Positions 1 through 12,972 of a stretch of 12,972 nucleotides of DNA are shown here, one piece after another (the stretch's first letter is position 1; every line of letters begins with the position of its first letter). The translations under genes were made by a program, and so were the position numbers. Under the pieces are notes generated by a model. The model worked only from the letters and a program-made list of their open reading frames with translations. It was not told where the DNA came from and ran no database searches. The stretch is taken from contig SYBY01000039.1 in assembly GCA_005788585.1 (NCBI GenBank), positions 1 through 12,972 of the forward strand, read 5' to 3'. This DNA comes from Actinomycetota bacterium (GTDB lineage Bacteria; Actinomycetota; Thermoleophilia; Solirubrobacterales; Solirubrobacteraceae).

Positions 1-12
1 GCTACCCGCCGT

Positions 13-2580
13 TCAGCCTGCAGCCCTGAGCCGCGCCTCCAGCTCGTCCGGCGGCAGGGGCCGGTCGAGCAGGAAGCCCTGGGCGTACTGGCAGCCGAGC
101 TCCTTCAGGCGGTCGAGCTGCGCCTCGGTCTCGACGCCCTCGGGGATGACGTCCACGCCGAGGGCGCTGGCCATGCGGACGATGGCGGTGACGATCGCGA
201 GGTCGCCGCTCTCGTCGTCGGCGATGCCGTCGATGAACGAGCGGTCGATCTTCAGGACCTCGATCGGGTAGCGCTTGAGGTAGCTCAGCGACGAGTACCC
301 GGTGCCGAAGTCGTCGATGACGAGGCGCACGCCCAGGCGCTGCAGCCGGCGCAGGGTGTCGGCGGTGGTCTGCGCGTCCTCGATGAGCACGTGCTCGGTG
401 ATCTCCAGGCCGACGTCGTTCGGGTGCACGCCGGCCTCGTCGATGGCCTCCGCGACGGTGTCGACGATGTCGTGCTGCGTGACCTGCCGGGCGGAGAGGT
501 TGACGGTGATCCGCAGGTCCTCGGCGGCGTCGACCGACCGGCGCCAGCGGGCCAGCTGCCGGCATGCGCGCTGGAGCACCCACGCGCCGAGCGGCACGAT
601 GAGCCCGCTCTCCTCGGCGATCGGGATGAACTGGTCGGGACCGACGAGCCCGCGCTCGGGATGGTTCCAGCGCACGAGCGCCTCGCAGCTGGCGATGCGC
701 CCGGAGCGCAGGTCGTGGATCGGCTGGAAGAAGAGCTGGAGCTCCTCGCGGTCGAGCGCGCGGCGCAGCTCGTTCTCGACCTGCAGGCGCGCGACGGCAC
801 GCGCGCGCATGCCCTCGTCGAAGACCTCGTAGCGGCCGCGGCCGGCCTCCTTCGCGCGGTACATCGCGGCGTCGGCGTCGCGCAGCAGCTCGGAGGCCTC
901 GATGTGCGAGTCGGCCACGACGAGGCCGACGCTGGCCGTCGCGAACTGCTGCTCGCCGCCGAGAGCGAACGGGCGCAGGAAGCACGCGCCCAGGCGCTCG
1001 GCCATCTCCTGCGCCTCGCGCTCGTCCTCGAGGTCCTCGCAGAGGACGGCGAACTCGTCGCCGCCGTGCCGGGCGACCGTGTCGCTCGCGCGGACCGCGC
1101 CGGAGAGGCGGGGCGCGACCTCGCGCAGCAGCTCGTCGCCGACGAGATGACCGAGGGAGTCGTTGATGAGCTTGAAGCGGTCGATGTCGAGCAGCAGGAC
1201 CGCCAGGGGTGACCGGTCGCGCTCGCTGCGCGCCAGCGCCTGGGCGAGACGGTCGCGGAACAGGACGCGGTTCGGCAGGCCGGTGAGCGGGTCGTGCATC
1301 GCGTCGTGGCGGGCCTGGTCCTCGGCACGGCGCGCGGCGATCGCCGTCGCGAGCACGTGGGAGACCGCCTGCAGCAGGTTCGTGTCGTCGTCGGTGAAGA
1401 CGCGGCGTTCCTGGCTGTAGGCCCCGAGCATGCCGAGCGGGCGATCGCGCTCGCCGAGCGGCACCGCCGTCCCGCTGATGATCCCGTGCTCGCGCAGCGG
1501 CTCGATCATCACCCCGCTGGGGCTCTCGTCGAGATCGAGGAACGTCACCGGCCCGCGCTCGAGGCGCCGGAACGCGGCGGTCCGGACGTCGTCGGGGGCG
1601 CGCATCCGCGAGCCGAGCATGCCGCTGTTCAGCCCGACGCCGGCGGCGACGAGCATCTCGTGGCTGCCGCGCTCGAACTCCAGGACGACGGCGAGCGGCA
1701 CGTCGAGGGTGCGGGAGACCGCCTCGCAGGCCTCGCGCAGCAGGTCGGGGACCGGCATGCCCGTCAGCGCGCGCTCGCCGAGCGCGGCCACCGCCGACTG
1801 CTGGGCCAGGCGCCGCTCGAGCTCCTGGGCGTCGCGCCGGCGGGCGGTGATGTCCTGCGTCGAGCAGCGCACCTCCGCCACCCGGCCGTCGTCGCCGGTG
1901 ATCCCCGCGCACGTGGTCTCCAGCCAGCGCACGTCTCCGCGCGCGTTGCGCAGCCGGTAGGCGACCGTGACGGTCTGCCCCGCGCGCACGGCCGGATCGA
2001 TCTCCGCGCGGACCCGCGCGCGGTCGTCCTCGTGAACCAGCTCGTAGATCGACCGGCCGACGAGCTCCTCCTGCTCGATCCCCAGCTCGCTCACCGAGGG
2101 CGAGACGTAGAGCACGGTGCCGTCAGGGCTGTGGCGGGTGACGATGTCGGTCGCGTGCTCGGCCAGTGACCGGAACGCCGTCTCGCGCTCACGCAGCTCG
2201 AGCTCGGCCTGCTGGCGCTGCGACGCGTCGAACGTGACGACGAGACCTCCGACCACGGTGCCGTCGCTGTCGACGACCGGTGAGGCCACCGCCAGATGCA
2301 GCGCGCGCTCGTCCGGCGTGGACAGCTCGAAGCGCCGGTCCTCCCCGGCGAGCACGGCGCGCCAGACGGTCTCGGACGGCGCGACGACGCCCGCGGGCAG
2401 CACCTCGGAGATCAGACGACCGCGGCCCGGTCCGTCGATGACCCGCAGCTCCTGGTCGAACCGGTGGACTCCGACGCCCGGAACCGCGCCCGCGTCCGCG
2501 CCTGCGGCCGTGGCACGGCCGTGTTGAGGGACAGAGGAGTCGCGCCGGGTCGGCACCGTCACGAGGCCAACTATCGGCAA
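13..2580 (-). CDS. PAS-PAS-GAF-GGDEF-EAL bifunctional cyclic di-GMP signalling protein
   Basis: This predicted cytoplasmic sensor (855 aa, no membrane segment) makes and/or degrades cyclic di-GMP. Domains in order: a weak PAS-like region at about 35-118, a clear PAS with PAC at about 131-245 (ending TQDITARRR), a GAF domain at about 262-418, GGDEF at about 428-585 and EAL at about 600-850. The cyclase half looks active: DIDRFK at 465-470 and an exact GGDEF at 506-510. An inhibitory I-site RASD lies at 497-500, five residues before GGDEF. The phosphodiesterase half keeps EALVRW (633-638), NLSA (694-697), EITEH (726-730), DDFGTGYSS (756-764), KIDR (777-780) and EGVET (814-818). All residues usually needed for both activities are therefore visible; which activity dominates cannot be read from sequence. 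The furthest upstream start is TTG; GTG codons at residues 7 and 9 are alternatives, so the first ~35 residues are uncertain. It is divergent from the operon beginning at 2678. Domain identity is certain; the sensed ligand is unknown. Confidence 0.96.
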   Translation of the reverse strand: MPIVGLVTVPTRRDSSVPQHGRATAAGADAGAVPGVGVHRFDQELRVIDGPGRGRLISEVLPAGVVAPSETVWRAVLAGEDRRFELSTPDERALHLAVASPVVDSDGTVVGGLVVTFDASQRQQAELELRERETAFRSLAEHATDIVTRHSPDGTVLYVSPSVSELGIEQEELVGRSIYELVHEDDRARVRAEIDPAVRAGQTVTVAYRLRNARGDVRWLETTCAGITGDDGRVAEVRCSTQDITARRRDAQELERRLAQQSAVAALGERALTGMPVPDLLREACEAVSRTLDVPLAVVLEFERGSHEMLVAAGVGLNSGMLGSRMRAPDDVRTAAFRRLERGPVTFLDLDESPSGVMIEPLREHGIISGTAVPLGERDRPLGMLGAYSQERRVFTDDDTNLLQAVSHVLATAIAARRAEDQARHDAMHDPLTGLPNRVLFRDRLAQALARSERDRSPLAVLLLDIDRFKLINDSLGHLVGDELLREVAPRLSGAVRASDTVARHGGDEFAVLCEDLEDEREAQEMAERLGACFLRPFALGGEQQFATASVGLVVADSHIEASELLRDADAAMYRAKEAGRGRYEVFDEGMRARAVARLQVENELRRALDREELQLFFQPIHDLRSGRIASCEALVRWNHPERGLVGPDQFIPIAEESGLIVPLGAWVLQRACRQLARWRRSVDAAEDLRITVNLSARQVTQHDIVDTVAEAIDEAGVHPNDVGLEITEHVLIEDAQTTADTLRRLQRLGVRLVIDDFGTGYSSLSYLKRYPIEVLKIDRSFIDGIADDESGDLAIVTAIVRMASALGVDVIPEGVETEAQLDRLKELGCQYAQGFLLDRPLPPDELEARLRAAG

Positions 2581-2665
2581 TTTGCCCTGCTAACTCAAGG
2601 TGGCACGTCAGCGCTCGTCGCCCAGGCACCCCGGAACACCTGCGCCCACCGGCCGGTCTGAGGAC

Positions 2666-2671
2666 TACGCT
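2666..2671 (+). promoter_or_regulatory. Candidate -10 hexamer (TACGCT), possibly leaderless
   Basis: TACGCT fits the actinobacterial TANNNT -10 pattern and ends 6 nt before the ATG at 2678, so transcription would begin at or next to the start codon. No Shine-Dalgarno is visible upstream of that ATG, which fits a leaderless mRNA. No convincing -35 is seen. This is inferred from position only. Confidence 0.4.
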
Positions 2672-2677
2672 CCGCCC

Positions 2678-3433
2678 ATGACGCCCAAACTGGACACCGC
2701 CGGCACGCTCGAGCGGATCTTCGAGATGTACTCCCGGCAGTTCGGCGTGCTGCTGCCCGCCGCGCTCATCATCTACCTGCCCGTCGCGATCTTCCAGGTG
2801 ATCGCCGGCACGAACTTCGTCCTCCTGCTGCTCGCCTCGATCTTCGCGCTGATCGCCGGCACCCTGTTCCAGGGCGCCGTCGTCCAGGCCGTCCGCGACA
2901 TGCAGGACGGCAAGCGCGACTTCTCGGTCGGAGAGCTCATCTCGTCGGCCGTCCCGTTCATCGCGCCGCTGCTCGGCGCGGGCATCCTCGCGGGCCTGGG
3001 CATCGGCATCGGCCTCATCCTGCTGATCGTCCCCGGGCTGTTCCTGCTGACGATCTGGGCGGTCATCGCGCCGGTCATCGTCGTCGAGAAGACCGGCGTC
3101 TTCCCGGCCTTCGGACGCAGCAGGGAGCTCGTCAAGGGCCAGGGCTGGCGCGTCTTCGGCGTCCTCATCGTGATGTTCCTCATCACGATCATCGCCCAGC
3201 AGATCCTGCTGGTCATCGGCGAGGGCATCGGCGACGAGATCGGCCGCGGTGTCGGCTTCCTCGTGGCCGCGACGCTCACCGCCCCGCTCGGTGCGCTCAC
3301 CGCGGCCATCCTGTACTTCACGCTCAAGGGCCTGAAGGGCGAGGCCGCGGCGCCGCCCGTCGAGTCCGCGCCGCCCGCCGACTCGCCGTTCGGCGGCCCG
3401 GCATCGGGCGGTCCGTCGCCCTTCGGCCAGTAG
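2678..3433 (+). CDS. Six-helix integral membrane protein of the GlpQ-membrane-domain/YIP1-like type
   Basis: This 251-residue protein is almost entirely membrane-embedded. Hydrophobic segments lie at about 22-43, 46-66, 91-113, 114-136, 157-181 and 193-217, with short loops between them. The stretch VPGLFLLTIWAVIAPVIVVE (118-137), followed by FGRSRELVKGQGWRVFGV (145-162), is typical of the uncharacterised membrane family related to the membrane domain of glycerophosphodiester phosphodiesterases. No catalytic motif is present, so no enzymatic role is proposed. The C-terminal ~30 residues are a Pro/Gly/Ser-rich tail with PFGG, PSPFG repeats, probably disordered and cytosolic. The ATG at 2678 is chosen over an upstream in-frame start at 2600 because the extra 26 residues are polar, Pro/Arg-rich and unlike the family, and a -10-like hexamer sits just before this ATG. 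It leads a three-gene operon; the thioesterase gene starts 7 nt after its stop. It could be a transporter-like or lipid-associated protein. Confidence 0.9.
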   Translation: MTPKLDTAGTLERIFEMYSRQFGVLLPAALIIYLPVAIFQVIAGTNFVLLLLASIFALIAGTLFQGAVVQAVRDMQDGKRDFSVGELISSAVPFIAPLLGAGILAGLGIGIGLILLIVPGLFLLTIWAVIAPVIVVEKTGVFPAFGRSRELVKGQGWRVFGVLIVMFLITIIAQQILLVIGEGIGDEIGRGVGFLVAATLTAPLGALTAAILYFTLKGLKGEAAAPPVESAPPADSPFGGPASGGPSPFGQ

Positions 3434-3440
3434 CCGGGAG

Positions 3441-4163
3441 ATGGACACCGCGCTCGTCGCGCCGCGGCCCGGCGGGCGCACCTTCACGGCGGAGGTCATC
3501 GCCGGGCTCGGGGACACCGCGCCCGGCGGGCGGGTCCGCGTCGATGCGATCGCGCGGTGGCTGCAGGACGTCGCCTACCGCGACGTCGGCGACGCCGGGC
3601 TGCTCGACGACGGCACGTGGATCGTGCGGCGGCTGCGCATGCGCGTGGAGGCGTTCCCGCGCTTCGACGAGCGCTGCGAGCTGACCACCTTCTGCAGCGG
3701 CGTCGGCGCCGTCCTCGCCGAGCGCCGCACCACGATCCGCGGCGCCGCGGGCGCGCACGTGGAAGCGGTCGCGCTGTGGGTGCACCTCGAGCCCGGCGGC
3801 GACGGGCTGCGGCCGCCGTCGGACGCCTACCGCGCGGTGTACGGCACGAGCGCGGGCGACCGCCGCGTGCGGGCGCGGCTGTTCCATGACCCCAAGCCGC
3901 CGGACGATGCCCCCGCGCGCCCGTTCGCCTTCCGCGCCGCCGACCTCGACGTCGCGGACCACGTCAACAACGCGGCGTACTGGACCGCGCTGGAGGAGCT
4001 GCTCGCCGGTGCCGATGATCCGGCCGTGCCCTTCGACGCCGAGATCGAGCACCGCGCGCCCGGCGACGCCGGGACCGTGACGATCGCCGGTCGCCCCGCC
4101 GCCGCCTGGATCGTCGACCCCGCCGGCACGACCCTCGCGACCATCAGGGAGCTCACCGCATGA
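3441..4163 (+). CDS. Acyl-ACP thioesterase-like double-hotdog protein
   Basis: This 240-residue protein resembles the acyl-[acyl-carrier-protein] thioesterase family, which releases free fatty acids from ACP in the cytoplasm. The first hotdog has the characteristic helix VDAIARWLQDVAYRDV (34-49), then GTWIVRRLRMRVEAFPRFDE (58-77) and an LTTFCSG strand. The second hotdog contains DLDVADHVNNAAYWTALEE (168-186), matching the family signature DxDxNxHVNNxxY. The position normally holding the conserved Asn of the DVNxH motif is Ala172, while Asp170 and His174 are kept, so activity may be altered. The ATG at 3441 is directly abutted by GGGAG with no spacing, so it is not a well-placed ribosome site. 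With the 7-nt gap from the previous stop, translation probably relies on coupling. Its stop overlaps the GH15 start in ATGA (4160-4163). The family assignment is fairly sure; the acyl substrate and catalytic competence are not. Confidence 0.88.
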   Translation: MDTALVAPRPGGRTFTAEVIAGLGDTAPGGRVRVDAIARWLQDVAYRDVGDAGLLDDGTWIVRRLRMRVEAFPRFDERCELTTFCSGVGAVLAERRTTIRGAAGAHVEAVALWVHLEPGGDGLRPPSDAYRAVYGTSAGDRRVRARLFHDPKPPDDAPARPFAFRAADLDVADHVNNAAYWTALEELLAGADDPAVPFDAEIEHRAPGDAGTVTIAGRPAAAWIVDPAGTTLATIRELTA

Positions 4164-5995
4164 CCGTCTCCGACGACCGCTACCTGCCTATCGCCGAGCA
4201 CGGCCTGATCGGCGACCTCCAGACCGCCGCGCTCGTGGACACGCGCGGGGCGATCTCGTGGTTCTGCTGCCCGCGCTTCGACTCTCCCAGCATCTTCGCC
4301 TCGCTCCTGGACGCCGACCGCGGCGGGCACTTCTCGATCACCGTCCCGGGCGAGGACGTCGTCGTCAAACAGCTGTACCTGCCCGACACGGCGATCCTCG
4401 TGACGCGGTTCCTGACCCCGGGCGGGGTCGGGGAGGTCGTCGACTTCATGCCGATCAGCGACCCGTCGGTCGCCACCGACCACCACCGCATCATCCGCGC
4501 CGTGCGCGTGGTGCGCGGCGAGGTCACGTTCGAGATGGAGTGCACGCCGCGCTTCGACTACGGGCGTCGCGACCACGGACTGCACCTGACCGATCACCAC
4601 GCGATGTTCACGACACCCGTGCAGGAGATCACGCTGCAGTCGACCGCGAAGCTCGAGCGCCTCGGCGAGCACGACGTGCGCGCGACCTTCACCCTGGCGG
4701 CCGGCGACGAGGGCGGCGTGGCGCTCGCCGCCGGGGCACCCGGACTGTCCCCGGGACCGCTGCAGGTCGGGCAGGTGCGCGAGCTGGGCGACCAGACCGC
4801 GAAGTTCTGGCGCGACTGGCTGCACGGCTGCACCTACCAGGGGCGCTGGCGCGAGACCGTCCGCCGCTCGGCCCTGACGCTGAAGCTGCTGACGTACGCC
4901 CCGACCGGCGCACCGGTCGCGGCGCCGACCACCAGCCTGCCCGAGCAGCTCGGGGGCGAGCGCAACTGGGACTACCGCTACACGTGGATCCGCGACGCGT
5001 CCTTCAGCCTCCAGGCGCTGCTGCAGCTCGGGTTCGCCGACGAGGCCGAGGCGTTCGCCCGCTGGCTCGACGACCGCGTCGTCGAGCAGGCGGGCGACGA
5101 GTCCGGCCCGCTGAAGGTCATGTACCGCGTCGACGGGTCCAGCGACCTCGACGAGGTCTCGCTCGAGCACTGGGAGGGCTACGAGGGCTCGGCTCCCGTC
5201 CGCGTCGGCAACGGCGCCGCCGACCAGCTCCAACTCGACATCTACGGCGAGGCGCTCGATTCGATCTACCAGGCCACGCGCCACGGCCGCCCTGTGACGC
5301 ACCACGGCTGGCTCAAGCTCTGCCGCATCGTCGACTGGCTGTGCGAGCACTGGGACGCGCCGGACGAGGGGATCTGGGAGACGCGCGGCGGGCAGAAGGC
5401 CTTCACGTACAGCCGCCTCATGTCGTGGGTTGCGCTCGACCGCGCGATCCGTATCTCCCGCCACCGTGGCCTGCCGGCGGACATCACACGGTGGCGGGCC
5501 TCGCGCGACGCGATCTACCGGCAGATCATCGAGCATGGCTGGGACGCCGATCGCGCCGCGTTCGTGCAGCACTACGACGGCGGCATCGTCGACGCCGCGC
5601 TGCTGAAGATGCCGCTGGTCGGGTTCCTCGCGCCGAGCGATGAGCTGTGGCACCAGACCCTGGCCGCGATGCGCGAGGACCTCGTCTCGGACAGCCTCGT
5701 CTACCGCTACGACCCCGCGGCGTCACCGGACGGTCTGCGCGGCAGCGAGGGCACGTTCTCGCTGTGCACCTTCTGGTTCGTCGACGCGCTCGCGCGGACC
5801 GGCGAGCTCGACGAGGCGCGGCTGACCTTCGAGAAGATGCTGACGTACGCCAACCACCTCGGCCTGTTCAGCGAGGAGATCGGGCCGACGGGCGAGCAGC
5901 TCGGCAACTTCCCGCAGGCGTTCACGCACCTCGCGCTCATCAGCGCGGCGGTGAACCTCGACGAGGCGCTCAACGAGCGCGAGCGCGTCCGTTAG
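4160..5995 (+). CDS. Glycoside hydrolase family 15 protein (glucoamylase/trehalase-type)
   Basis: This 611-residue enzyme is predicted to hydrolyse alpha-glucosidic bonds by inversion; mycobacterial relatives of this architecture act as trehalases, others on alpha-1,4-glucans. The N-terminal beta-sandwich (about 1-215) opens with YLPIAEHGLIGDLQTAALVD and ISWFCCPRFDSPSIFASLLD, typical of the bacterial trehalase-like subgroup. The (alpha/alpha)6 barrel follows, with GGERNWDYRYTWIRDASFSL (265-284). The likely general acid is Glu407 in GIWETRG, and the likely general base is Glu579 in GPTGEQLGNFPQAFTHL, both at the expected places. Length is normal for the group and there is no signal peptide, so it should be cytoplasmic and act on internal trehalose or glycogen-derived oligosaccharide. 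The start is fixed by the ATGA overlap with the thioesterase gene, implying translational coupling. Its TAG shares bases with the opposing hydrolase stop. Substrate is not decidable from sequence alone. Confidence 0.95.
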   Translation: MTVSDDRYLPIAEHGLIGDLQTAALVDTRGAISWFCCPRFDSPSIFASLLDADRGGHFSITVPGEDVVVKQLYLPDTAILVTRFLTPGGVGEVVDFMPISDPSVATDHHRIIRAVRVVRGEVTFEMECTPRFDYGRRDHGLHLTDHHAMFTTPVQEITLQSTAKLERLGEHDVRATFTLAAGDEGGVALAAGAPGLSPGPLQVGQVRELGDQTAKFWRDWLHGCTYQGRWRETVRRSALTLKLLTYAPTGAPVAAPTTSLPEQLGGERNWDYRYTWIRDASFSLQALLQLGFADEAEAFARWLDDRVVEQAGDESGPLKVMYRVDGSSDLDEVSLEHWEGYEGSAPVRVGNGAADQLQLDIYGEALDSIYQATRHGRPVTHHGWLKLCRIVDWLCEHWDAPDEGIWETRGGQKAFTYSRLMSWVALDRAIRISRHRGLPADITRWRASRDAIYRQIIEHGWDADRAAFVQHYDGGIVDAALLKMPLVGFLAPSDELWHQTLAAMREDLVSDSLVYRYDPAASPDGLRGSEGTFSLCTFWFVDALARTGELDEARLTFEKMLTYANHLGLFSEEIGPTGEQLGNFPQAFTHLALISAAVNLDEALNERERVR

Positions 5996-7752
5996 CGGAT
6001 CGCCCGCAGGCGGCGTGCGACCGTCCGCGCGCTGACCTCGCCGTCGCGATCGGCGGCCTCCGCGGTCGGCAGCGTCCCCGCGTGGGTGAGCATGAAGTCG
6101 ACGACCGCGGCCGCCGTGTCCTCCGGCTGGCCGTCGTTCTGGCGCGGCGAGGCGGTGACGACATCGAGGTGGTCGTAGCCCGGCAGCGTCACCGCAACGT
6201 CGCCCGGACGGGCCGGCGGCGCCTTGCGGTCGGTCACGCCGTCTGCGGCGAACACCGTCAGGCGCGGCCGTGCCGCGGGCCCCCCGGCGTAGCGGACGTG
6301 CGCGAGGTCGCCCGCCCGGAACCCGGCCTGGGAGAAGCCGACGTCCGTGGTGATGCGGGTGGGGAAGTACTCCTCGGCGAAGTCGAGCGGCCCGTTGCCG
6401 AGCACCCGCGCCATGTCCTGGATGTCGGTGACCTCGCTCTCCGGCGTGCTGTACGGCAACCCGTTCGGCTGCGGGAAGGCCGGCAGCGCGTCGTCGAAGT
6501 TCGCCCAGCCGTAGAGCTGGCCGGTCGCCGTCGGGAAGAGCAGCGACCCGCCCTGCGACCAGGCCTTGCGACCGACCGGGCCGCGGTCATACACGCCGAG
6601 GCTCGTGCGGATGAAGCTCAGCGGCTGCGTGTCGTCGTCGAGGAACGCGCCGAGCAGCGCCTCGCCGGTCAGCTGCTGGCGGCGCAGCATCGCGACGGGG
6701 GCGACGAGGTCGGCCGCCGTGCGCGAGTGGAACAGGCGCAGTCCCTGCTCGGCCGCGCCGCGCGTGGGAATGCGCGCCACGAGGTCGGACGTGTCGGTGT
6801 CGGGCCGCAGCTGGGCGGTCACGCCGACGCCGAGGAGCGTGCCCATCGTCTCGGGCCCGATGAAGCCGAAGTCCACGACGCGCAGCGACGAGTTCACGAA
6901 CGACGTGACCGCGTGGTACGCGTACGAACGGGTGCGCTGCACCGACTCGCTGACCAGCGGGACGTCGCCCAGGCCCGAGGGGTCGGCCGTCACGACGCTG
7001 TCGAGCGCGATCGACGCGCGGCACAGCTCGTAGCCGGCGTCGCCGGTGGTGGCGTCGTCGCCGTCGAAGTCCCAGGCCATGAGCTGGCCGGTGAGCGAGC
7101 CGCCGAGGCTGTGCCCGCCGCAGAACAGCTTGCGCGCCCGCACGTCGGCGTCGGGCATGCCGTCCACGATGACGGTGCGGTAGTCCTCGATCGTCTGCTT
7201 GAGATCGAAGTGCGCCGCGATGGCGACCTGGCCGTTCTTCAGGAAGCCGCCGAACGTGCGCCCCTCGACCTCCTTGCGGCCGAAGTAGTAGTCCAGCGCC
7301 GCGGCCGGGTCGTTCGCGCGCAGCGCGGCGTCGAGCCCGTGGCGGTCCTCCAGGCAGTTCGAGCGGCGGTCCAGCGCCCACACCTCGACGCTCCGCCCCC
7401 GCTCGGCGGCGAGCTGCACGACCCCCAGGCCGTGCATCTCCAGCGAGCCCGCGCCGCCCAGCACGCCGGGCATGTTCACGAAGACGGCGTCGGCCTGCTG
7501 CGGGTCGGCGGGCCCACCGGCGCGGCGGTAGCGGTAGTAGCGCAGCTGGTCGCAGGCCGCCGGGTGGGCGGGCACGCCCGCGGGCATCGGGGCGTCGAGC
7601 GTGACGAGCGAGCGGGTGACGTCGGCGAACGGGCCGGGCGGAGTGGCGAGCGGCTGCTCGGTCCGCGCCGCGGATGCCGCCGCGGGGGCGAGCAGCGCGA
7701 CGGCGGCGCTCACCAGCGCGGCACGGCGGACCTGCGGGAACCTGCGATGCAC
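5992..7752 (-). CDS. Large secreted alpha/beta-hydrolase
   Basis: This 586-residue exported protein has a signal peptide: MHRRFPQVRR basic region, hydrophobic 11-25, and a likely AxA cleavage after ASA (26-28). The nucleophile elbow GGHSLGGS (212-219) puts the catalytic Ser at 215. A late GYDHLDV places the probable catalytic His at 528, and Asp504 or Asp508 in VFAADGVTD is a candidate acid. Cysteines at 67, 133, 211 and 244 could form disulfides outside the cell. An esterase, lipase or peptidase-like role is plausible, but I do not recognise a named subfamily; it is long for a simple esterase, and the region between Ser and His (~310 residues) must contain a large lid or cap. The GTG start is supported by a strong GGGGAG six bases upstream; no in-frame ATG lies nearby. 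It follows the quinone oxidoreductase gene by 39 nt on the same strand, so it is probably co-transcribed. The stop overlaps that of the convergent GH15 gene. Confidence 0.88.
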   Translation of the reverse strand: MHRRFPQVRRAALVSAAVALLAPAAASAARTEQPLATPPGPFADVTRSLVTLDAPMPAGVPAHPAACDQLRYYRYRRAGGPADPQQADAVFVNMPGVLGGAGSLEMHGLGVVQLAAERGRSVEVWALDRRSNCLEDRHGLDAALRANDPAAALDYYFGRKEVEGRTFGGFLKNGQVAIAAHFDLKQTIEDYRTVIVDGMPDADVRARKLFCGGHSLGGSLTGQLMAWDFDGDDATTGDAGYELCRASIALDSVVTADPSGLGDVPLVSESVQRTRSYAYHAVTSFVNSSLRVVDFGFIGPETMGTLLGVGVTAQLRPDTDTSDLVARIPTRGAAEQGLRLFHSRTAADLVAPVAMLRRQQLTGEALLGAFLDDDTQPLSFIRTSLGVYDRGPVGRKAWSQGGSLLFPTATGQLYGWANFDDALPAFPQPNGLPYSTPESEVTDIQDMARVLGNGPLDFAEEYFPTRITTDVGFSQAGFRAGDLAHVRYAGGPAARPRLTVFAADGVTDRKAPPARPGDVAVTLPGYDHLDVVTASPRQNDGQPEDTAAAVVDFMLTHAGTLPTAEAADRDGEVSARTVARRLRAIR

Positions 7753-7757
7753 AGCCG

Positions 7758-7766
7758 TCTCCCCCC
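7758..7766 (-). promoter_or_regulatory. Strong ribosome binding site deciding a GTG start
   Basis: On the minus strand GGGGGGAGA precedes GTG at 7752, with six bases between GGGGAG and the start codon. This supports GTG as the true start of the secreted hydrolase and contrasts with the apparently leaderless genes nearby. Confidence 0.7.
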
Positions 7767-7791
7767 GGAAACTGGACGAACGCCCAAGAGT

Positions 7792-8775
7792 CTACGGCTC
7801 GAGGACGACCTTGCCCACAGCCTGGCGCGCGTCGATGACCTTCAGCGCGTCGGCGGCATCCTCGAGCGCGAAGCGCGGCCCAACGATTGGACGCACGTGG
7901 CCGGAGGCGATGAGCTGGTCGATCGCGTCACCGGCCTCGGCGGCGTACGCCGGGTTCGCCAGGAGGTACTCGCCCCAGCCGGCACCGATGACCTCGGTGT
8001 TCTTCAGCAGCAGCCGGTTGACCTTGACCTCGGGGATCGACCCGCCCGTGAAGCCGACGACCACGACGCGACCGGTCCGAGCGAGCGAGCGCAGGCTGTC
8101 GGTGAACCGATCGCCGCCGACCGGGTCGATGACGAGATCCACCCCGCCGCCCGACAGCGCGACCGCGTCGTCCTTCCACGCGCCGTCACTGCGCACCACG
8201 TGATCGGCGCCGGCGTCCGTGGCGATCTTCGCCTTCTCGTCGGAGGAGACGACGGCGATCGTCGTGGCGCCCAGGCCCTTCGCGACCTGGATCGTCGCGG
8301 TGCCCACGCCCCCCGCCGCCCCGTGGATGAGCACCGTCTCACCGGCGCGCAGGCGCCCGCGGGTGACGAGCGCGAAGTACGCCGTGTGGTAGTTGAGGAC
8401 GAGTCCCGCGCCCTGGGCGAAGTCGAGCGCGTCGGGGAGCGCGAACGTGTAGTTCACGGGCGCGACGGCCTGCTCGGCGAACCCGCCGAGGAAGCAGAAG
8501 GCGGCCACGCGATCGCCCGGCTGCAGCGACGTGTCGCCCGCGACGGCGCGCACGGTGCCTGCCACCTCGCTGCCTGGGACGAACGGCAGCTCCGGCTTCA
8601 TCTGGTACTCGCCGCGGGTCTGCAGGACCTCGGGGAACGACACCCCGGCGGCTTCGACGTCGACGACCACGCCGGCACCTGGCGTCATGAAGTGCGACGG
8701 CTCGGGGATCGGGAGGTCCACGAGCTTCAGGGCGGAGTCCGGGCCGGAGTAGTCGACGATCTGGAGGGCGCGCAT
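7792..8775 (-). CDS. Zinc-independent MDR-family NADPH:quinone oxidoreductase
   Basis: This 327-residue medium-chain reductase should transfer hydride from NADPH to a quinone or an alpha,beta-unsaturated carbonyl in the cytoplasm. The N-terminal GroES-like domain contains AAGVSFPEVLQTRGEYQ (42-58) and FVPGSEVAG (65-73), the quinone-reductase form in which GSE replaces the zinc-alcohol-dehydrogenase GHE; no structural four-Cys lobe is present. The nucleotide-binding domain has HGAAGGVGTATIQVAKGLGA (151-170), then VVSSDEK (175-181) and DLVIDPVGG (213-221). The protein ends GKVVLEP, standard for the family, and length is normal. The ATG at 8775 is chosen because it precedes MRALQ at the usual domain start; the reading frame stays open far upstream, but that part is only the reverse complement of the divergent gene. 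A TACTTT hexamer 8 nt upstream suggests a near-leaderless transcript. It probably heads an operon with the secreted hydrolase. The physiological substrate is unknown. Confidence 0.95.
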   Translation of the reverse strand: MRALQIVDYSGPDSALKLVDLPIPEPSHFMTPGAGVVVDVEAAGVSFPEVLQTRGEYQMKPELPFVPGSEVAGTVRAVAGDTSLQPGDRVAAFCFLGGFAEQAVAPVNYTFALPDALDFAQGAGLVLNYHTAYFALVTRGRLRAGETVLIHGAAGGVGTATIQVAKGLGATTIAVVSSDEKAKIATDAGADHVVRSDGAWKDDAVALSGGGVDLVIDPVGGDRFTDSLRSLARTGRVVVVGFTGGSIPEVKVNRLLLKNTEVIGAGWGEYLLANPAYAAEAGDAIDQLIASGHVRPIVGPRFALEDAADALKVIDARQAVGKVVLEP

Positions 8776-8783
8776 GACCCAGG

Positions 8784-8789
8784 AAAGTA
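8784..8789 (-). promoter_or_regulatory. Candidate -10 hexamer (TACTTT) for the quinone oxidoreductase gene
   Basis: On the minus strand TACTTT matches TANNNT and ends 8 nt before the ATG at 8775, with no Shine-Dalgarno between. This would give a transcript with little or no 5' leader. No clear -35 is seen. It lies in the 69-bp divergent spacer shared with the gene starting at 8845. Confidence 0.4.
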
Positions 8790-8831
8790 CGCGTCCTGTC
8801 CACCGTTGGTCTCGGTAGGCCGCAGCAGGAG

Positions 8832-8837
8832 TAGGTT
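8832..8837 (+). promoter_or_regulatory. Candidate -10 hexamer (TAGGTT) for the secreted protein gene
   Basis: TAGGTT matches TANNNT and ends 7 nt before the ATG at 8845, the spacing expected for a leaderless mRNA. An AGGAG at 8827-8831 is 13 nt from the ATG, too far to be a good ribosome site. A TTGGTC at 8806-8811 is 20 bp upstream of the hexamer, a poor distance for a -35. Confidence 0.4.
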
Positions 8838-8844
8838 GGACGCC

Positions 8845-10665
8845 ATGCTCCGCGCTCCGGCCGTCCTGGTCGCCCTCGCCCTCCTGGCCGCCGCTCCAGG
8901 GGCCGCCGACGGGGCGACGGCCAAGAAGCCGCGCTGCAAGAAGGGCCAGGTGGCGTGGAAGCTCGAGGGACGCACCCGCTGCGTGAAGGCCGTGAAGGTC
9001 ACGCTCCCGCGCAAGCCGGCGCGACGTTCGCAGCTCGCGGTCACCCGGCTCCTGGAGGGGGCGACGGCGTCGAAGCCGAAGCTGCCCGCCACGGAGCTGA
9101 CGCCCGCCATGCGCGCGCTGCTGCGCCGCCCGTCGGTCGTCGCGGCCGCCGTGCAGGCCGAGGCGCTCGCGCGCACGCGCGCCACCGCGTCGCGGGTGAC
9201 ACCCCGTGCGTCGCAGACCCTGACGGGCCCGTCCTTCTCCGAGACCGCTGGCTCGGCCACCATGACCGGCACCACGAGCGCCACGCTGAGCGACACCGGC
9301 CGGGTGGCCATCGAGCTGGGGCTGCGACTCGCGCAGGGCGGCGCATCCACCGAGATGAAGGTCGGCGTGGAGCTCAGCCCGGACGCGAGCATCACGAACC
9401 TGTGCCCGGACGAGACCGGCAGGGTGGTGGTCGAGCGGACCACCGGCGGCAGCCTGACGACGCTGGTGCGCAAGGGCGGCAACGTCGAGAGCGCCGAGAC
9501 CGTGCGCGCGCGGACGACGACGCGGTCCGTCGGCCAGGTCGGCTCCGACGGCCGGCTGGACACCGTCACCTCCAGCGCGACGACGACCACCACGATCGCG
9601 CGCCGCGGGCTGCAGATCGCGATCACGACCCGTGAGTCGGTCGCCGGCCCGCACGGAGCCCCCGGGAAGTCGACGGGCACCCCGTCGGTCTCCGCGACGG
9701 TCAAGGGCGACGGGCTCTCGGGCGCCGAAGCGCGGGCGATCGAAACGAACCTCGCCACGAAGGCCGCGGCGGACGCCACCGACGCGAAGATCGAGAAGGG
9801 CATGAGCGACATCGGCCGCAACCAGCTCAACGAGGCGTCGAAGAACTGGGAGTCGCTGGAGAACAACGGCAGCAACGCGTGCCTGAAGGTCACCTGGACC
9901 CCCGGCCCCGGCACCGTGCTGAAGACCGGGCAGAGCAAGACCGTGAAAGGGCGGGCCGTTGCACGCAACGGCGGGAAGTCCGTGGCGGCGACGTGGACCG
10001 TCGTCTCGGTCGACCCCGGCAGGTTCACCGGTGGCGGTGCGGCGGGACCCGGCGGCCAGACGTTCACAGCGACTGGCGGCAAGCGCAGCGCGACGGGCGA
10101 CACGGTCGTCGCCAGCGTCGTGGTCGCGTCCGTCGCAGGCCGCGTGCGCGAGCCGTGGGTCGCGAAGGACCAGCCGTCGTTCGCGTTCGAGCTCGACGAT
10201 CGCCCCACGGGCGAGTTCGCCACGCACAGCGCCACCGGCTGGCTCAACACCAAGACGACGCTCAAGCTCGTGCCGGACAGCAGCCCCGCCCGCTTCGAAT
10301 CGGGTCCGGTCACCCTGTCCTGGCAGCAGGTGACGGCGACGTCGAAGATCCCGCCGTGCACCTACCACTCGCCTCTGGGCGGCGGCACGATGAGCGTCAC
10401 CGCGGTGCAGACCGGAGAGCAGCTCACGGTCACCATGGACTTCACCAAGGACAGCAGCGTGTCGTGGACGGTCAGCTGCCCGAGCGACGACGGGCCTCCG
10501 GCCGAGGTGGCTGGTCAGGCAGGGGTCAGCGTCCTGGCGATGCGCCCGCTGACGTTCACGGTGCCCATGGCCGGCGGCGTGCAGCCGATAGCCGGCGAGG
10601 TGCTCCTCGGCAGCGACGGCTTCCGGTCGAACGGCACGGTCACGGTCACGCCGGTGGGAGGCTGA
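8845..10665 (+). CDS. Secreted beta-rich protein of unknown function with Lys/Cys N-terminal motif
   Basis: I do not recognise a named family for this 606-residue protein. It has a signal peptide (hydrophobic core about 5-18, probable cleavage near ADGA at 21-24). The mature N-terminus carries a basic two-Cys knot, KKPRCKKGQVAWKLEGRTRC, with Cys31 and Cys46, a style common in exported proteins of deep-branching actinobacteria. The rest is Thr/Ser/Gly-rich alternating beta sequence with one predicted helical stretch (about 290-340). Six cysteines in total (31, 46, 187, 346, 505, 545) suggest up to three disulfides; 505 and 545 flank one C-terminal beta region. There is no transmembrane anchor, sortase motif or catalytic motif, so a cell-surface or extracellular binding/structural role is only a guess. 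The ATG is chosen because it precisely precedes the signal peptide; the same frame is open for kilobases upstream, but only as antisense of other genes. It is divergent from the oxidoreductase, and the LLM gene follows closely. Confidence 0.88.
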   Translation: MLRAPAVLVALALLAAAPGAADGATAKKPRCKKGQVAWKLEGRTRCVKAVKVTLPRKPARRSQLAVTRLLEGATASKPKLPATELTPAMRALLRRPSVVAAAVQAEALARTRATASRVTPRASQTLTGPSFSETAGSATMTGTTSATLSDTGRVAIELGLRLAQGGASTEMKVGVELSPDASITNLCPDETGRVVVERTTGGSLTTLVRKGGNVESAETVRARTTTRSVGQVGSDGRLDTVTSSATTTTTIARRGLQIAITTRESVAGPHGAPGKSTGTPSVSATVKGDGLSGAEARAIETNLATKAAADATDAKIEKGMSDIGRNQLNEASKNWESLENNGSNACLKVTWTPGPGTVLKTGQSKTVKGRAVARNGGKSVAATWTVVSVDPGRFTGGGAAGPGGQTFTATGGKRSATGDTVVASVVVASVAGRVREPWVAKDQPSFAFELDDRPTGEFATHSATGWLNTKTTLKLVPDSSPARFESGPVTLSWQQVTATSKIPPCTYHSPLGGGTMSVTAVQTGEQLTVTMDFTKDSSVSWTVSCPSDDGPPAEVAGQAGVSVLAMRPLTFTVPMAGGVQPIAGEVLLGSDGFRSNGTVTVTPVGG

Positions 10666-10682
10666 TCGCCCTGAGGTGCGAC

Positions 10683-11657
10683 GTGGTGCTGCGCGGTGCG
10701 GCGATCACCGCGGTCGGTGCGCAGGCCGCGCACGCCGAGGCCCTCGGCTTCGACGGGATCGGCGTGACCGAGACCAACGGCAATCCGTTCCTCGCCGCGG
10801 CGCAGGCGGCTCAGACCACGGAACGCGCGCGGATCGCGACCGCCATCGCGCTCGCGTTCCCGCGCACGCCGATGGACGTCGCCTACACGGCGTGGGACCT
10901 CCAGGCGCTGTCGGGCGGCCGCTTCGCACTGGGGCTCGGGACCCAGGTGCGGGCGCACGTCGAGCGCCGGTATGGCGCGGTGTGGTCGCGGCCGGCGGCG
11001 CGGATGCGCGAGTACATCCTCGCGCTGCACGCGATCTGGGACGCGTGGGAGACGGGCGGCCCGCTCGCCTTCGAGGGGGAGATCTACCGCCACACGCTCA
11101 TGCCGCCGAACTTCCGCCCTTTGCCGGCGGCGCACCCTCGCCCGCCGGTCCTGCTGGCGGCGGTGCGCGAGCGGATGACGGAGGTCGCCGGAGAAGTCGC
11201 CGACGGCCTGCTCGGCCACGCCTTCTGCACCGCCGACGTCCTGCGGGACGTCACGCTCCCGGCGCTCGAACGTGGACTCGAGCGCGGCGGACGGGCACGC
11301 ACCGACGTCGAGGTCACCGCGTCGGTCTTCGTCGCAGGCGACGACGAGGCGTGGGAGGCCAACCGGCGGCGCGTCGCGTTCTACGGCTCGACCCCCGGGT
11401 ACCGCCACGTGCTCGACCACCACGGGCTCGGGGAGCTGTTCGAAGCCCTTCACGCGCGCTCGCGCGCGGGCGCGTGGGACGAACTGCCGGGGTTGATCGA
11501 CGACGACGTCCTCGCGCTGTTCTGCGTCCGCGGTGACGAACCCGGCGCGATCGCCGCCGAGGTCACGGCGCGGGTCGGCGGCCTGGCCGACCGCGTGTGC
11601 CTGGTGACGGAGGCCGCGGATCCGTCGGCCGTCGCGCCGATCGCGTCGGCGCGCTGA
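10683..11657 (+). CDS. LLM-class (luciferase-like) F420-dependent oxidoreductase
   Basis: This ~324-residue TIM-barrel enzyme belongs to the luciferase-like monooxygenase superfamily and most resembles the F420-dependent subgroup called TIGR03617/MSMEG_2256-like. Visible family blocks, numbered from this GTG: LGFDGIGVTETNGNPFLAAA (21-40), ERARIATAIALAFPRTPM (47-64), TAWDLQALSGGRFALGLGTQ (69-88), HVERRYGAVWSRPAARMREY (92-111) and GEIYRHTLMPPNF (132-144). It presumably uses reduced F420 or flavin for hydride transfer; the substrate is unknown. GTG at 10683 has GAGG six bases upstream. However, the family's first beta strand (MKxDxxL) aligns with residues translated from 10671 (LRCDVVL), where the codon is CTG preceded by GGGAGG at 10656-10661, so the true start may be that CTG. 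The preceding gene stops only 17 nt upstream, so co-transcription is likely. Superfamily assignment is firm; the start is not. Confidence 0.92.
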   Translation: MVLRGAAITAVGAQAAHAEALGFDGIGVTETNGNPFLAAAQAAQTTERARIATAIALAFPRTPMDVAYTAWDLQALSGGRFALGLGTQVRAHVERRYGAVWSRPAARMREYILALHAIWDAWETGGPLAFEGEIYRHTLMPPNFRPLPAAHPRPPVLLAAVRERMTEVAGEVADGLLGHAFCTADVLRDVTLPALERGLERGGRARTDVEVTASVFVAGDDEAWEANRRRVAFYGSTPGYRHVLDHHGLGELFEALHARSRAGAWDELPGLIDDDVLALFCVRGDEPGAIAAEVTARVGGLADRVCLVTEAADPSAVAPIASAR

Positions 11658-11659
11658 GC

Positions 11660-11672
11660 GGCGGACACCGCC
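11660..11672. terminator. Weak candidate bidirectional hairpin between convergent genes
   Basis: GGCGG-ACA-CCGCC forms a 5-bp GC stem with a 3-base loop in the 26-bp gap between the convergent LLM oxidoreductase and membrane protein genes. There is no T tract on either side, so it is at best a weak or non-canonical terminator. In DNA this GC-rich such a stem can arise by chance. Confidence 0.22.
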
Positions 11673-11683
11673 TCGACGTCGTG

Positions 11684-12388
11684 TCAGAGGTCGATGAGGA
11701 AGTGCGAGACGACGAGCGCGCCGGTGTAGAACGTCGAGACGGCCGCGGCGAGGGCGATCCGCCGTGGCCACACGGCTGAACGTCGAAATGTGGTGGCACC
11801 AGCCGCCACATCTCGACGCTCGGCGCCCGGAACCGCCGCATTTCGACGTTCGGCGTTGTAGGCGACGGCGGCGGCCCAGCCGAGCGCCGCTTCGGCCGGC
11901 AGGACGTAGAGCGCGATGCCCGCCAGCTCGAACGGGTCGCCCGCCGGCTCCCACAGCTCGAGCGTCGGCGCCAGTAGCTCCGAGCCGAAGAAGATGCCGA
12001 ACGCCGCCGCGGCCGCACGGCCGGGCCGGGCGTGCGTGAGCGCGAGCGCGAGGAACAGCGGCGCCACCCACATCCCGCCCATCGCGAGGTGGATGCTGTC
12101 GTCGACCCGCGGACCGCCGATCTCGGGGAAGCGCAGCGTCCCGATGAGGTCGGCGAGGATCCAGTCGGGGACGATCTGGAAGACCGAGACGGGCAGCAGC
12201 AGCGCCCACATGGCAAACCAGTCGTCACGGCCCACGGCGCGCGCCGTGAGCGGCAGCGCGACGTTGAACACGACGACCAGCGCGAGGACGAACCAGCCCT
12301 TGGCTGGCGGGTCGAGCAGCAGCGTCGCGGCGGTGCCGGCGAACAGCCCGGCGAAGACCGCCGCGACGGCGCGGACGTCGCGGGTCAC
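11684..12388 (-). CDS. Integral membrane protein of unknown function with an in-frame palindromic insert
   Basis: This 234-residue protein has about six hydrophobic segments: roughly 7-25, 31-50, 58-75, 100-118, 125-141 with 155-177 following, and 209-230. Conserved-looking soluble or interfacial stretches include GRDDWFAMWALLLPVSVFQI (53-72), VPDWILADLIGTLRFPEIGG (73-92) and DDSIHLAMGGMWVAPLF (96-112); the acidic, His and Trp residues within or next to membrane segments suggest a conserved uncharacterised family rather than a random hydrophobic ORF. No known function is assigned. The GTG start is fixed by a GTGA overlap (12385-12388) with the stop of the upstream metallo-hydrolase, so the two are probably translationally coupled. 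Residues 179-205, between the last two hydrophobic segments, are Arg-rich and come from the repeat element at 11775-11855. Without them the protein would read VAYN directly into AVWPRR. The real product is very likely; helix count is approximate. Confidence 0.85.
   Translation of the reverse strand: MTRDVRAVAAVFAGLFAGTAATLLLDPPAKGWFVLALVVVFNVALPLTARAVGRDDWFAMWALLLPVSVFQIVPDWILADLIGTLRFPEIGGPRVDDSIHLAMGGMWVAPLFLALALTHARPGRAAAAAFGIFFGSELLAPTLELWEPAGDPFELAGIALYVLPAEAALGWAAAVAYNAERRNAAVPGAERRDVAAGATTFRRSAVWPRRIALAAAVSTFYTGALVVSHFLIDL
11775..11855. repeat. 81-bp in-frame palindromic repeat element (three 22-bp motif copies)
   Basis: Three copies of a motif with core GAACGTCGAAATG lie here: copy A at 11775-11796 (plus orientation), copies B at 11803-11824 and C at 11833-11854 (both inverted). 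By hand count A and C agree at 19 of 22 positions, B and C at 19 and A and B at 18. A can pair with B (6-base loop) or with C, so alternative hairpins are possible in DNA or mRNA. B and C are spaced exactly 30 bp and encode AERRNAAVPG and AERRDVAAGA in tandem. The segment is 27 codons long, keeps the host gene in frame, and uses AAT, TTT, ACA, TCA, CGT and CGA codons that are scarce around it. It resembles a REP-like or coding-sequence-invading palindromic element; no transposase is present in the window. Confidence 0.72.
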
Positions 12389-12972
12389 GTGCGCGGCGCG
12401 ATCGTCCCGTAGTTCATGCCGCCGTGGCGGTACGTCGGCTTGATCGGCCACTGCAGCCGCAGGTCGGCCAGCTCGGAGGACGGGATGACCTGGCGCCAGC
12501 GCGGGTCGGCCTTCGCCGGGTCGGCGAGCGTCTTCTCGAGCACCATCGAGTCGTACTGGTCCTGGGGGTCCTCGAGCGTGTTCGCGTTGGGCACGATCTC
12601 GCGGCCGAAGAACCGCGCGTACTTCCGCAGCCCGGGGATCTTCGAGAGCTCGGGCTGCCAGTTGTCCAGCGCGACGCCGTTCTCCGAGCTGACCCACACG
12701 CCGTCGGGCGTGTTGACCACGAGCGAGTGGTTGCCGTCGGTGTGCCCGGGCGTCCACGCGATCGCGACGCCGACGCCCAGCTCGACCGAGCCGTGCAGGC
12801 GGCCGAAGCGCTCGACCTGCGCGTCCTTCAGCCCGTCCGGGACGTACCACGCCCACTGCATCGGGTGGCCGTCCTCCATCGTCGCGATCTCGCTGTCCTG
12901 CGCGAGGACGATCGCGTTGGGGAACAGCGGCGCGCGGGGCGCGGCCTCGCCCGGGATCGGCGCGGTGGTGCC
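12385..12972 (-). CDS. Metallo-beta-lactamase-fold hydrolase, N-terminus beyond the window
   Basis: The C-terminal 195 residues of an MBL-fold metallo-hydrolase are present. The frame is open to the right edge of the window, so the ATG at 12879 is internal: the preceding residues (GTTAPIPGEAAPRAPLFPNA, then IVLAQDSEIAT) continue the fold. The block WTPGHTDGNHSLVV carries the third metal-ligand His of the superfamily; the diagnostic HxHxDH motif should lie just outside the window. After it, DGVWVSSENGVALDNW occupies the place where many relatives have a GD metal-bridging aspartate; here the visible acidic residue is Glu in SSENG, so the metal site may be atypical. The C-terminal tail (about 90 residues, rich in aromatic and charged residues, ending GGMNYGTIAPRT) is extended. 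The substrate is unknown; lactonase-like, thioester or phosphodiester substrates are all possible. Its stop overlaps the start of the membrane protein in GTGA, indicating one transcript. Confidence 0.88.
   Translation of the reverse strand, partial: GTTAPIPGEAAPRAPLFPNAIVLAQDSEIATMEDGHPMQWAWYVPDGLKDAQVERFGRLHGSVELGVGVAIAWTPGHTDGNHSLVVNTPDGVWVSSENGVALDNWQPELSKIPGLRKYARFFGREIVPNANTLEDPQDQYDSMVLEKTLADPAKADPRWRQVIPSSELADLRLQWPIKPTYRHGGMNYGTIAPRT

Follow-up and report, generated by a model that had tools for sequence, protein, structure and literature searches.

We describe an 81-bp palindromic element inserted in frame into the gene of a DUF6989 membrane protein, in a stretch of 12,972 nucleotides from an actinobacterium of the family Solirubrobacteraceae (assembly GCA_005788585.1, contig SYBY01000039.1, positions 1 to 12,972; this whole stretch is called the window below). 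With a probability of roughly 0.7, we propose that this block is a solitary, non-autonomous copy of the palindrome at the ends of a mobile unit, composed of a gene for an AbiEi + EDxHD (DUF559) nuclease and a cognate palindrome on each side of it. The proposal is supported by the observed dispersal of the palindrome in related genomes, by its insertion in the same frame in two genes, by a conserved hairpin, by palindrome-flanked nuclease genes and by the matching of repeat families to nucleases in one of the genomes. We infer by analogy that the nuclease mobilizes the palindrome. The initial annotation of the window had recognized the insertion; that the same repeats flank nuclease genes goes beyond it.

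The insertion and its orthologues

The initial annotation described three arms, one forward and two inverted exactly 30 bp apart, in a block of 81 bp or 27 codons, and these coordinates proved correct (Table 1). The block consists of a 50-nt hairpin unit and one additional arm. Compared with their own shuffled versions, the hairpin folds with a z-score of -8.0 and the whole block with -6.1. With up to 3 mismatches allowed, the arm motif occurs 7 times in the window; shuffles average 2.31 matches, and only 1/200 reached 7. A near-match at 11729-11741 was rejected as a part of the element, being ordinary coding sequence that is also present in an insert-free orthologue (L003). As read from the sequence, the block lies between two putative hydrophobic segments of the DUF6989 protein.

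Table 1. Position of the element and its parts within the window
Feature	Position	Strand	Details
DUF6989 (PF22497) membrane-protein gene carrying the insert	11684..12388	-	234 aa (P0001), GTG start
Three-armed palindromic element	11775..11855		81 bp, 27 codons, residues 179-205 of P0001; translated in the gene as AERRNAAVPGAERRDVAAGATTFRRSA
Hairpin core (model R1)	11775..11824		50 nt; 68.9 bits, E 2.2e-21
Forward arm GAACGTCGAAATG	11778..11790	+	exact
Second arm, inverted	11809..11821	-	2 mismatches against GAACGTCGAAATG
Third arm, inverted	11839..11851	-	exact GAACGTCGAAATG, 30 bp from the second arm

In the genome collection, the nearest matches of the gene are L001, from a Solirubrobacteraceae metagenome-assembled genome (MAG; 95% identity), and L002, from Svornostia abyssi J379 (86%). 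An alignment of 37 proteins places the block in P0001, P0002 and P0003; it is missing from P0004-P0007 (87-89% identical) and from the remoter sequences, which are collinear elsewhere. The empty site is visible also in the DNA of L003. Together with the dispersed copies presented below, these orthologues bear out the earlier claim that a palindromic element invaded the membrane-protein gene in frame. In Svornostia, a shorter version with one hairpin occupies the equivalent position and is read in the same frame. Although residues 179-205 do span 27 codons, the net gain relative to empty orthologues is 23 codons in the window and L001, and 14 in Svornostia. Between the window and L001, the ratio of nonsynonymous to synonymous substitution rates (dN/dS) is 0.09 in the part preceding the block and 0.05 in the part following it; inside the block it is 0.8, a rough figure based on 11 changes. 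Selection is thus strong on either side of the insertion and weak in it: the protein is maintained, also beyond the insertion, whereas the inserted sequence drifts.

Two side observations belong here. The C-terminus of the protein ends in FLIDL (window 11684-11700) in both the window and P0003, 7 residues shorter than in L001, which ends in FLIDIAGWSITT. L003 (CAMCUD010000005.1) is titled as a Bifidobacterium breve MAG; its DUF6989 gene shares 80% identity with that of the window and its genome falls in the family of the Svornostia genome, so it is apparently mislabelled.

Dispersal of the palindrome and a second in-frame insertion

The genomes of L001, L002 and L003 are referred to as G001, G002 and G003. 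The pattern GAACGTCGAAATGNGG at up to 1 mismatch has 30, 6 and 10 matches in them, respectively, with none in each for the reversed pattern. Dispersed copies were one of the two kinds of support that the initial annotation had named, orthologues without the block being the other. A covariance model, R1, was built from 30 copies, including that of the window, whose hairpin core is the sole significant R1 match there. Counting both strands, R1 has at least 76, 44 and 43 matches at E <= 0.01 in the three genomes; these are lower bounds, with 150 first-look candidates scored per genome. The sites analysed further, some of which belong to the training set of the model, number 37, 18 and 21 among the matches listed. 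Across the order, 23/232 genomes match R1 at E <= 0.001, with strong matches in few of them, and variant families with 44, 55 and 12 matches (both strands, E <= 1e-4) are present in G054, G056 and G030.

Among the R1 copies, stem pairing is kept at 85.9%, against 23-47% in slid versions, and covariation amounts to 0.186 against 0.127 in shuffles. Two further covariation measures did not exceed shuffles (212/500 and 213/500 shuffles were as high). At column pair 18/33, 17 copies have GC and 13 have UA; at pair 21/30, 12 have CG and 11 have GC. Because these splits run partly along genomes, few events may underlie them. Many palindromes of G003 (alignment A2) are bulged asymmetrically, with AAATG facing CTCCT, which gives them a direction that is mostly missing in the G001 copies. 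In G056, three tandem copies with a spacing of exactly 73 bp occupy C6:2353-2548.

The surroundings of 77 sites (the 76 listed and the window) were compared with 2000 positions drawn at random from the same loci, with coding regions called by a home-made codon score and not by a gene finder. For 57/77 sites a coding-type stop is present no further than 150 bp away on one or both sides (226/2000 random positions), and for 40/77 there is one within 17 nt (43/2000). Clearly intragenic are four sites, three in DUF6989 orthologues and one in a gene for the alpha subunit of acetyl/propionyl-CoA carboxylase (ACC alpha), and a fifth is doubtful. Because so many sites lie within 17 nt of a stop and so few inside genes, the element is not mainly coding.

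The ACC alpha copy (G003:C5:111742) is located in a gene of 647 aa (L139:2173-4113, minus strand) and is read as AERRGDVAGATTFRRSA at residue 508. Among 14 aligned proteins the insert is present in L139, P0243 and P0244 and missing from the others, including P0245 at 85% identity. In both independent insertions, those into DUF6989 and ACC alpha, the element is translated in one and the same frame (AERR...RRSA), although no preference can be claimed from two events. In another ACC alpha protein, P0263, roughly the same loop holds an unrelated insertion of GPGPSPKK type, and the loop therefore looks generally permissive.

Palindromes flank genes for AbiEi + DUF559 nucleases

R1-type palindromes also flank genes for a protein predicted to join an AbiEi-like region (residues 3-186) to an EDxHD homing-endonuclease/Vsr domain. 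The predicted structure shows the EDxHD catalytic fold. Residues E198, E223, D225, E236, D238, H243 and D249 are invariant (52/52) and are candidates for the conserved catalytic acidic and His residues of EDxHD homing endonucleases such as I-Bth0305I.

A search of six genomes yielded 12 core loci (E < 1e-30) in five of them and 15 distant paralogues, 14 with a locus. An R1 palindrome occurs within about 150 bp at all 12 core loci, and on both sides at nine. As for the remaining three, there is a single weak match (16.5 bits) at L179, L189 reaches a contig end, and the model gives one palindrome at L196. No R1 match at E < 0.01 was found at the 14 loci of distant paralogues. When any palindrome common to both flanks was accepted (p <= 0.0053, from 1500 random windows), 9/11 core loci and 9/28 others had one.

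The association extends further into the phylum. Nuclease relatives are present in 52 of 396 sampled Actinomycetota genomes, with up to at least 6 per genome. In this draw, 10/27 nuclease loci have paired flanking palindromes (p <= 0.005 each) and 17/27 do not pass; about 7/19 pass outside the order and 3/8 inside it, as assigned by the order-wide genome list. Passing loci score 35 to 95, compared with maxima of 34 for random windows and 37 for mispaired flanks (n = 702), so that the passing scores of two loci, L278 and L276, fall within the mispaired range. The flanking palindromes vary in sequence between loci, and their similarity tracks nuclease identity (Mantel r 0.55, equalled in 0/2000 permutations; computed for the 21/34 loci where a less strict rule gives a pair).

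The flanks of L181, L184, L188 and L261 carry very different palindromes that have in common an apical core near GTCGCTATAGCGAC, even outside the order. Such a core might serve as a common recognition element. L200 in G001 and L202 in G002 look orthologous by eye, judging from their left flanks, and carry nucleases with different palindromes, altered alike on both sides.

Cognate repeat families

With the nuclease flanks set aside, 14 sites of G001 resemble the flanks of the nuclease on C42, 18 those on C143 and 1 another. In G003, 16/19 sites resemble the flanks of its own C45 locus. The number of arms follows the same division in G001, where, flanks included, all 16 C42-type copies are three-armed and all 20 C143-type copies two-armed. 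The spacing between arms is 30 bp in 19/23 sites scored as three-armed, against 3/77 for a scrambled-core control. The window copy is three-armed and C42-type (score 64, next best 41). The palindrome core at L200, another nuclease of G001, has 8 exact copies in that genome, 3 of them at L200 itself, and 0 in four other genomes; at up to 1 mismatch the counts are 16 in G001 and 5, 4, 2 and 2 in the four others.

The picture is less clear in G002. Its sites are mixed, 8/16 best matching its own two loci and 8/16 loci of other genomes, and the arm-number rule fails there, with C42-type copies being three-armed in 2/4 cases and two-armed in 2/4. As the cognate rule holds less well here than in the other two genomes, our confidence was lowered slightly to the value given above.

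Alternative explanations

The most serious competitor, which we nevertheless regard as unlikely, sees the palindromes beside nuclease genes as operator or terminator of an autoregulated AbiEi-like gene, with dispersed copies spread by other means and kept as 3´ hairpins. The predicted AbiEi-like fold would agree with this, and the excess of sites within 17 nt of a stop is what terminators or mRNA-stability hairpins would give. On the other hand, many nuclease genes have matching palindromes on both sides, copies are found inside two genes, and each dispersed family of G001 retains the flank architecture of its own nuclease.

Somewhat less probable still, the element could be a miniature inverted-repeat transposable element (MITE) or a repetitive extragenic palindromic (REP) sequence moved in trans by an unrelated transposase, with the nuclease locus merely one of its targets. 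Movement in trans is thought to apply to MITEs and GTAG REPs (PMC3733652). However, Y1_Tnp (PF01797), the family of REP-associated tyrosine transposases (RAYTs) and the sole transposase family searched, had 0 hits in six genomes, some of them draft assemblies (the control was positive in 5/14). In addition, the association with the nuclease recurs with unrelated palindrome sequences and with co-divergence. Finally, a native conserved protein loop with coincidentally palindromic DNA, to which the open frame in the window, L001 and P0003 and the shorter form in Svornostia would lend some credit, can practically be dismissed, since the block is missing in P0004-P0007 and L003, its dN/dS is near-neutral, and the dispersal of the same DNA between genes already contradicts it.

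Proposed mechanism and significance

By analogy with REP/RAYT systems, we envisage that the AbiEi-like part of the nuclease would bind the palindrome as DNA or cruciform, and that the EDxHD domain would nick or cut there. Repair or strand transfer might then copy the palindrome to new sites, mostly just past stop codons. Intragenic copies would persist only where the frame stays open within a tolerant loop. The window copy belongs to the three-armed family of the G001 C42-type nuclease. No match was found in plasmid and phage collections; because of this, and because the copies are divergent and partly broken, long residence in the chromosome is suggested.

Taken alone, the window feature is of a known kind, a mobile repeat creating protein loops in frame, here in an actinobacterial lineage. 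With its enzyme partner it becomes a new form of this kind, perhaps a new class. We see an even chance that AbiEi + EDxHD (DUF559) nucleases with cognate flanking palindromes constitute a new class of mobile elements across Actinomycetota, similar to REPtrons but with a homing-type nuclease replacing the tyrosine transposase, in which each lineage spreads its own family and copies sometimes turn into protein; related nucleases might then explain orphan CGTC REPs. If this is true, a role would be suggested for a family of proteins that is widespread in actinobacteria and whose function is unknown.

Comparison with known systems

The element resembles MITEs in being short, non-autonomous, dispersed and palindromic. 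A parent insertion sequence was not identified, the nuclease being the only gene found flanked and Y1_Tnp the only transposase family searched; nor was a target-site duplication, the single DNA-level empty site (L003) being too diverged around the junction. Unlike EDxHD homing endonucleases such as I-Bth0305I, and unlike Vsr, the domain forms one protein with an AbiEi-like region here, and palindromes flank its gene. Neither an intron nor an intein was noticed near the nuclease, in an analysis that included no search aimed at them. In contrast to AbiE type IV toxin-antitoxin systems, where AbiEi is the antitoxin, only one gene, encoding a nuclease domain, lies between the palindromes. At L177 they span 1447-2470 and the gene 1501-2376, and an AbiEii toxin gene does not fit between them.

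Palindromes inserted in frame have been described in Rickettsia and other bacteria (PMC10969869, PMC3733652). The parallel with rickettsial palindromic elements drawn in the initial annotation holds for behaviour, since here too, as in CGTC REPs, unrelated genes (DUF6989, ACC alpha) received in-frame palindromes. The differences are that few copies are intragenic here and that a candidate enzyme is present. CGTC REPs bear an unpaired terminal CGTC tag, whereas here CGTC lies within the paired stem (columns 7-10 paired in 29-30/30 copies). According to PMC3733652, CGTC REPs have no dedicated transposase.

The system also resembles REP/RAYT systems (REPtrons) and GTAG REPs. They have in common with our system short dispersed palindromes, often just past coding regions and sometimes intragenic, and an enzyme gene located between the same repeats; our palindrome too is dispersed mainly past stop codons. 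The GTAG tetranucleotide, a hallmark of GTAG REPs, is not in the consensus of the 30 copies. Within an open-licence library, viewed mostly as listings, we saw no paper that links palindromes to DUF559, AbiEi or EDxHD genes. Another difference is the enzyme, AbiEi + EDxHD here, which is unrelated to the Y1/HUH tyrosine transposase. It is a candidate that comes in matched enzyme-repeat pairs, amenable to binding and cutting tests. If our proposal is true, a second, unrelated kind of enzyme is added to the REP field, and common but poorly understood bacterial repeats gain a new partner.
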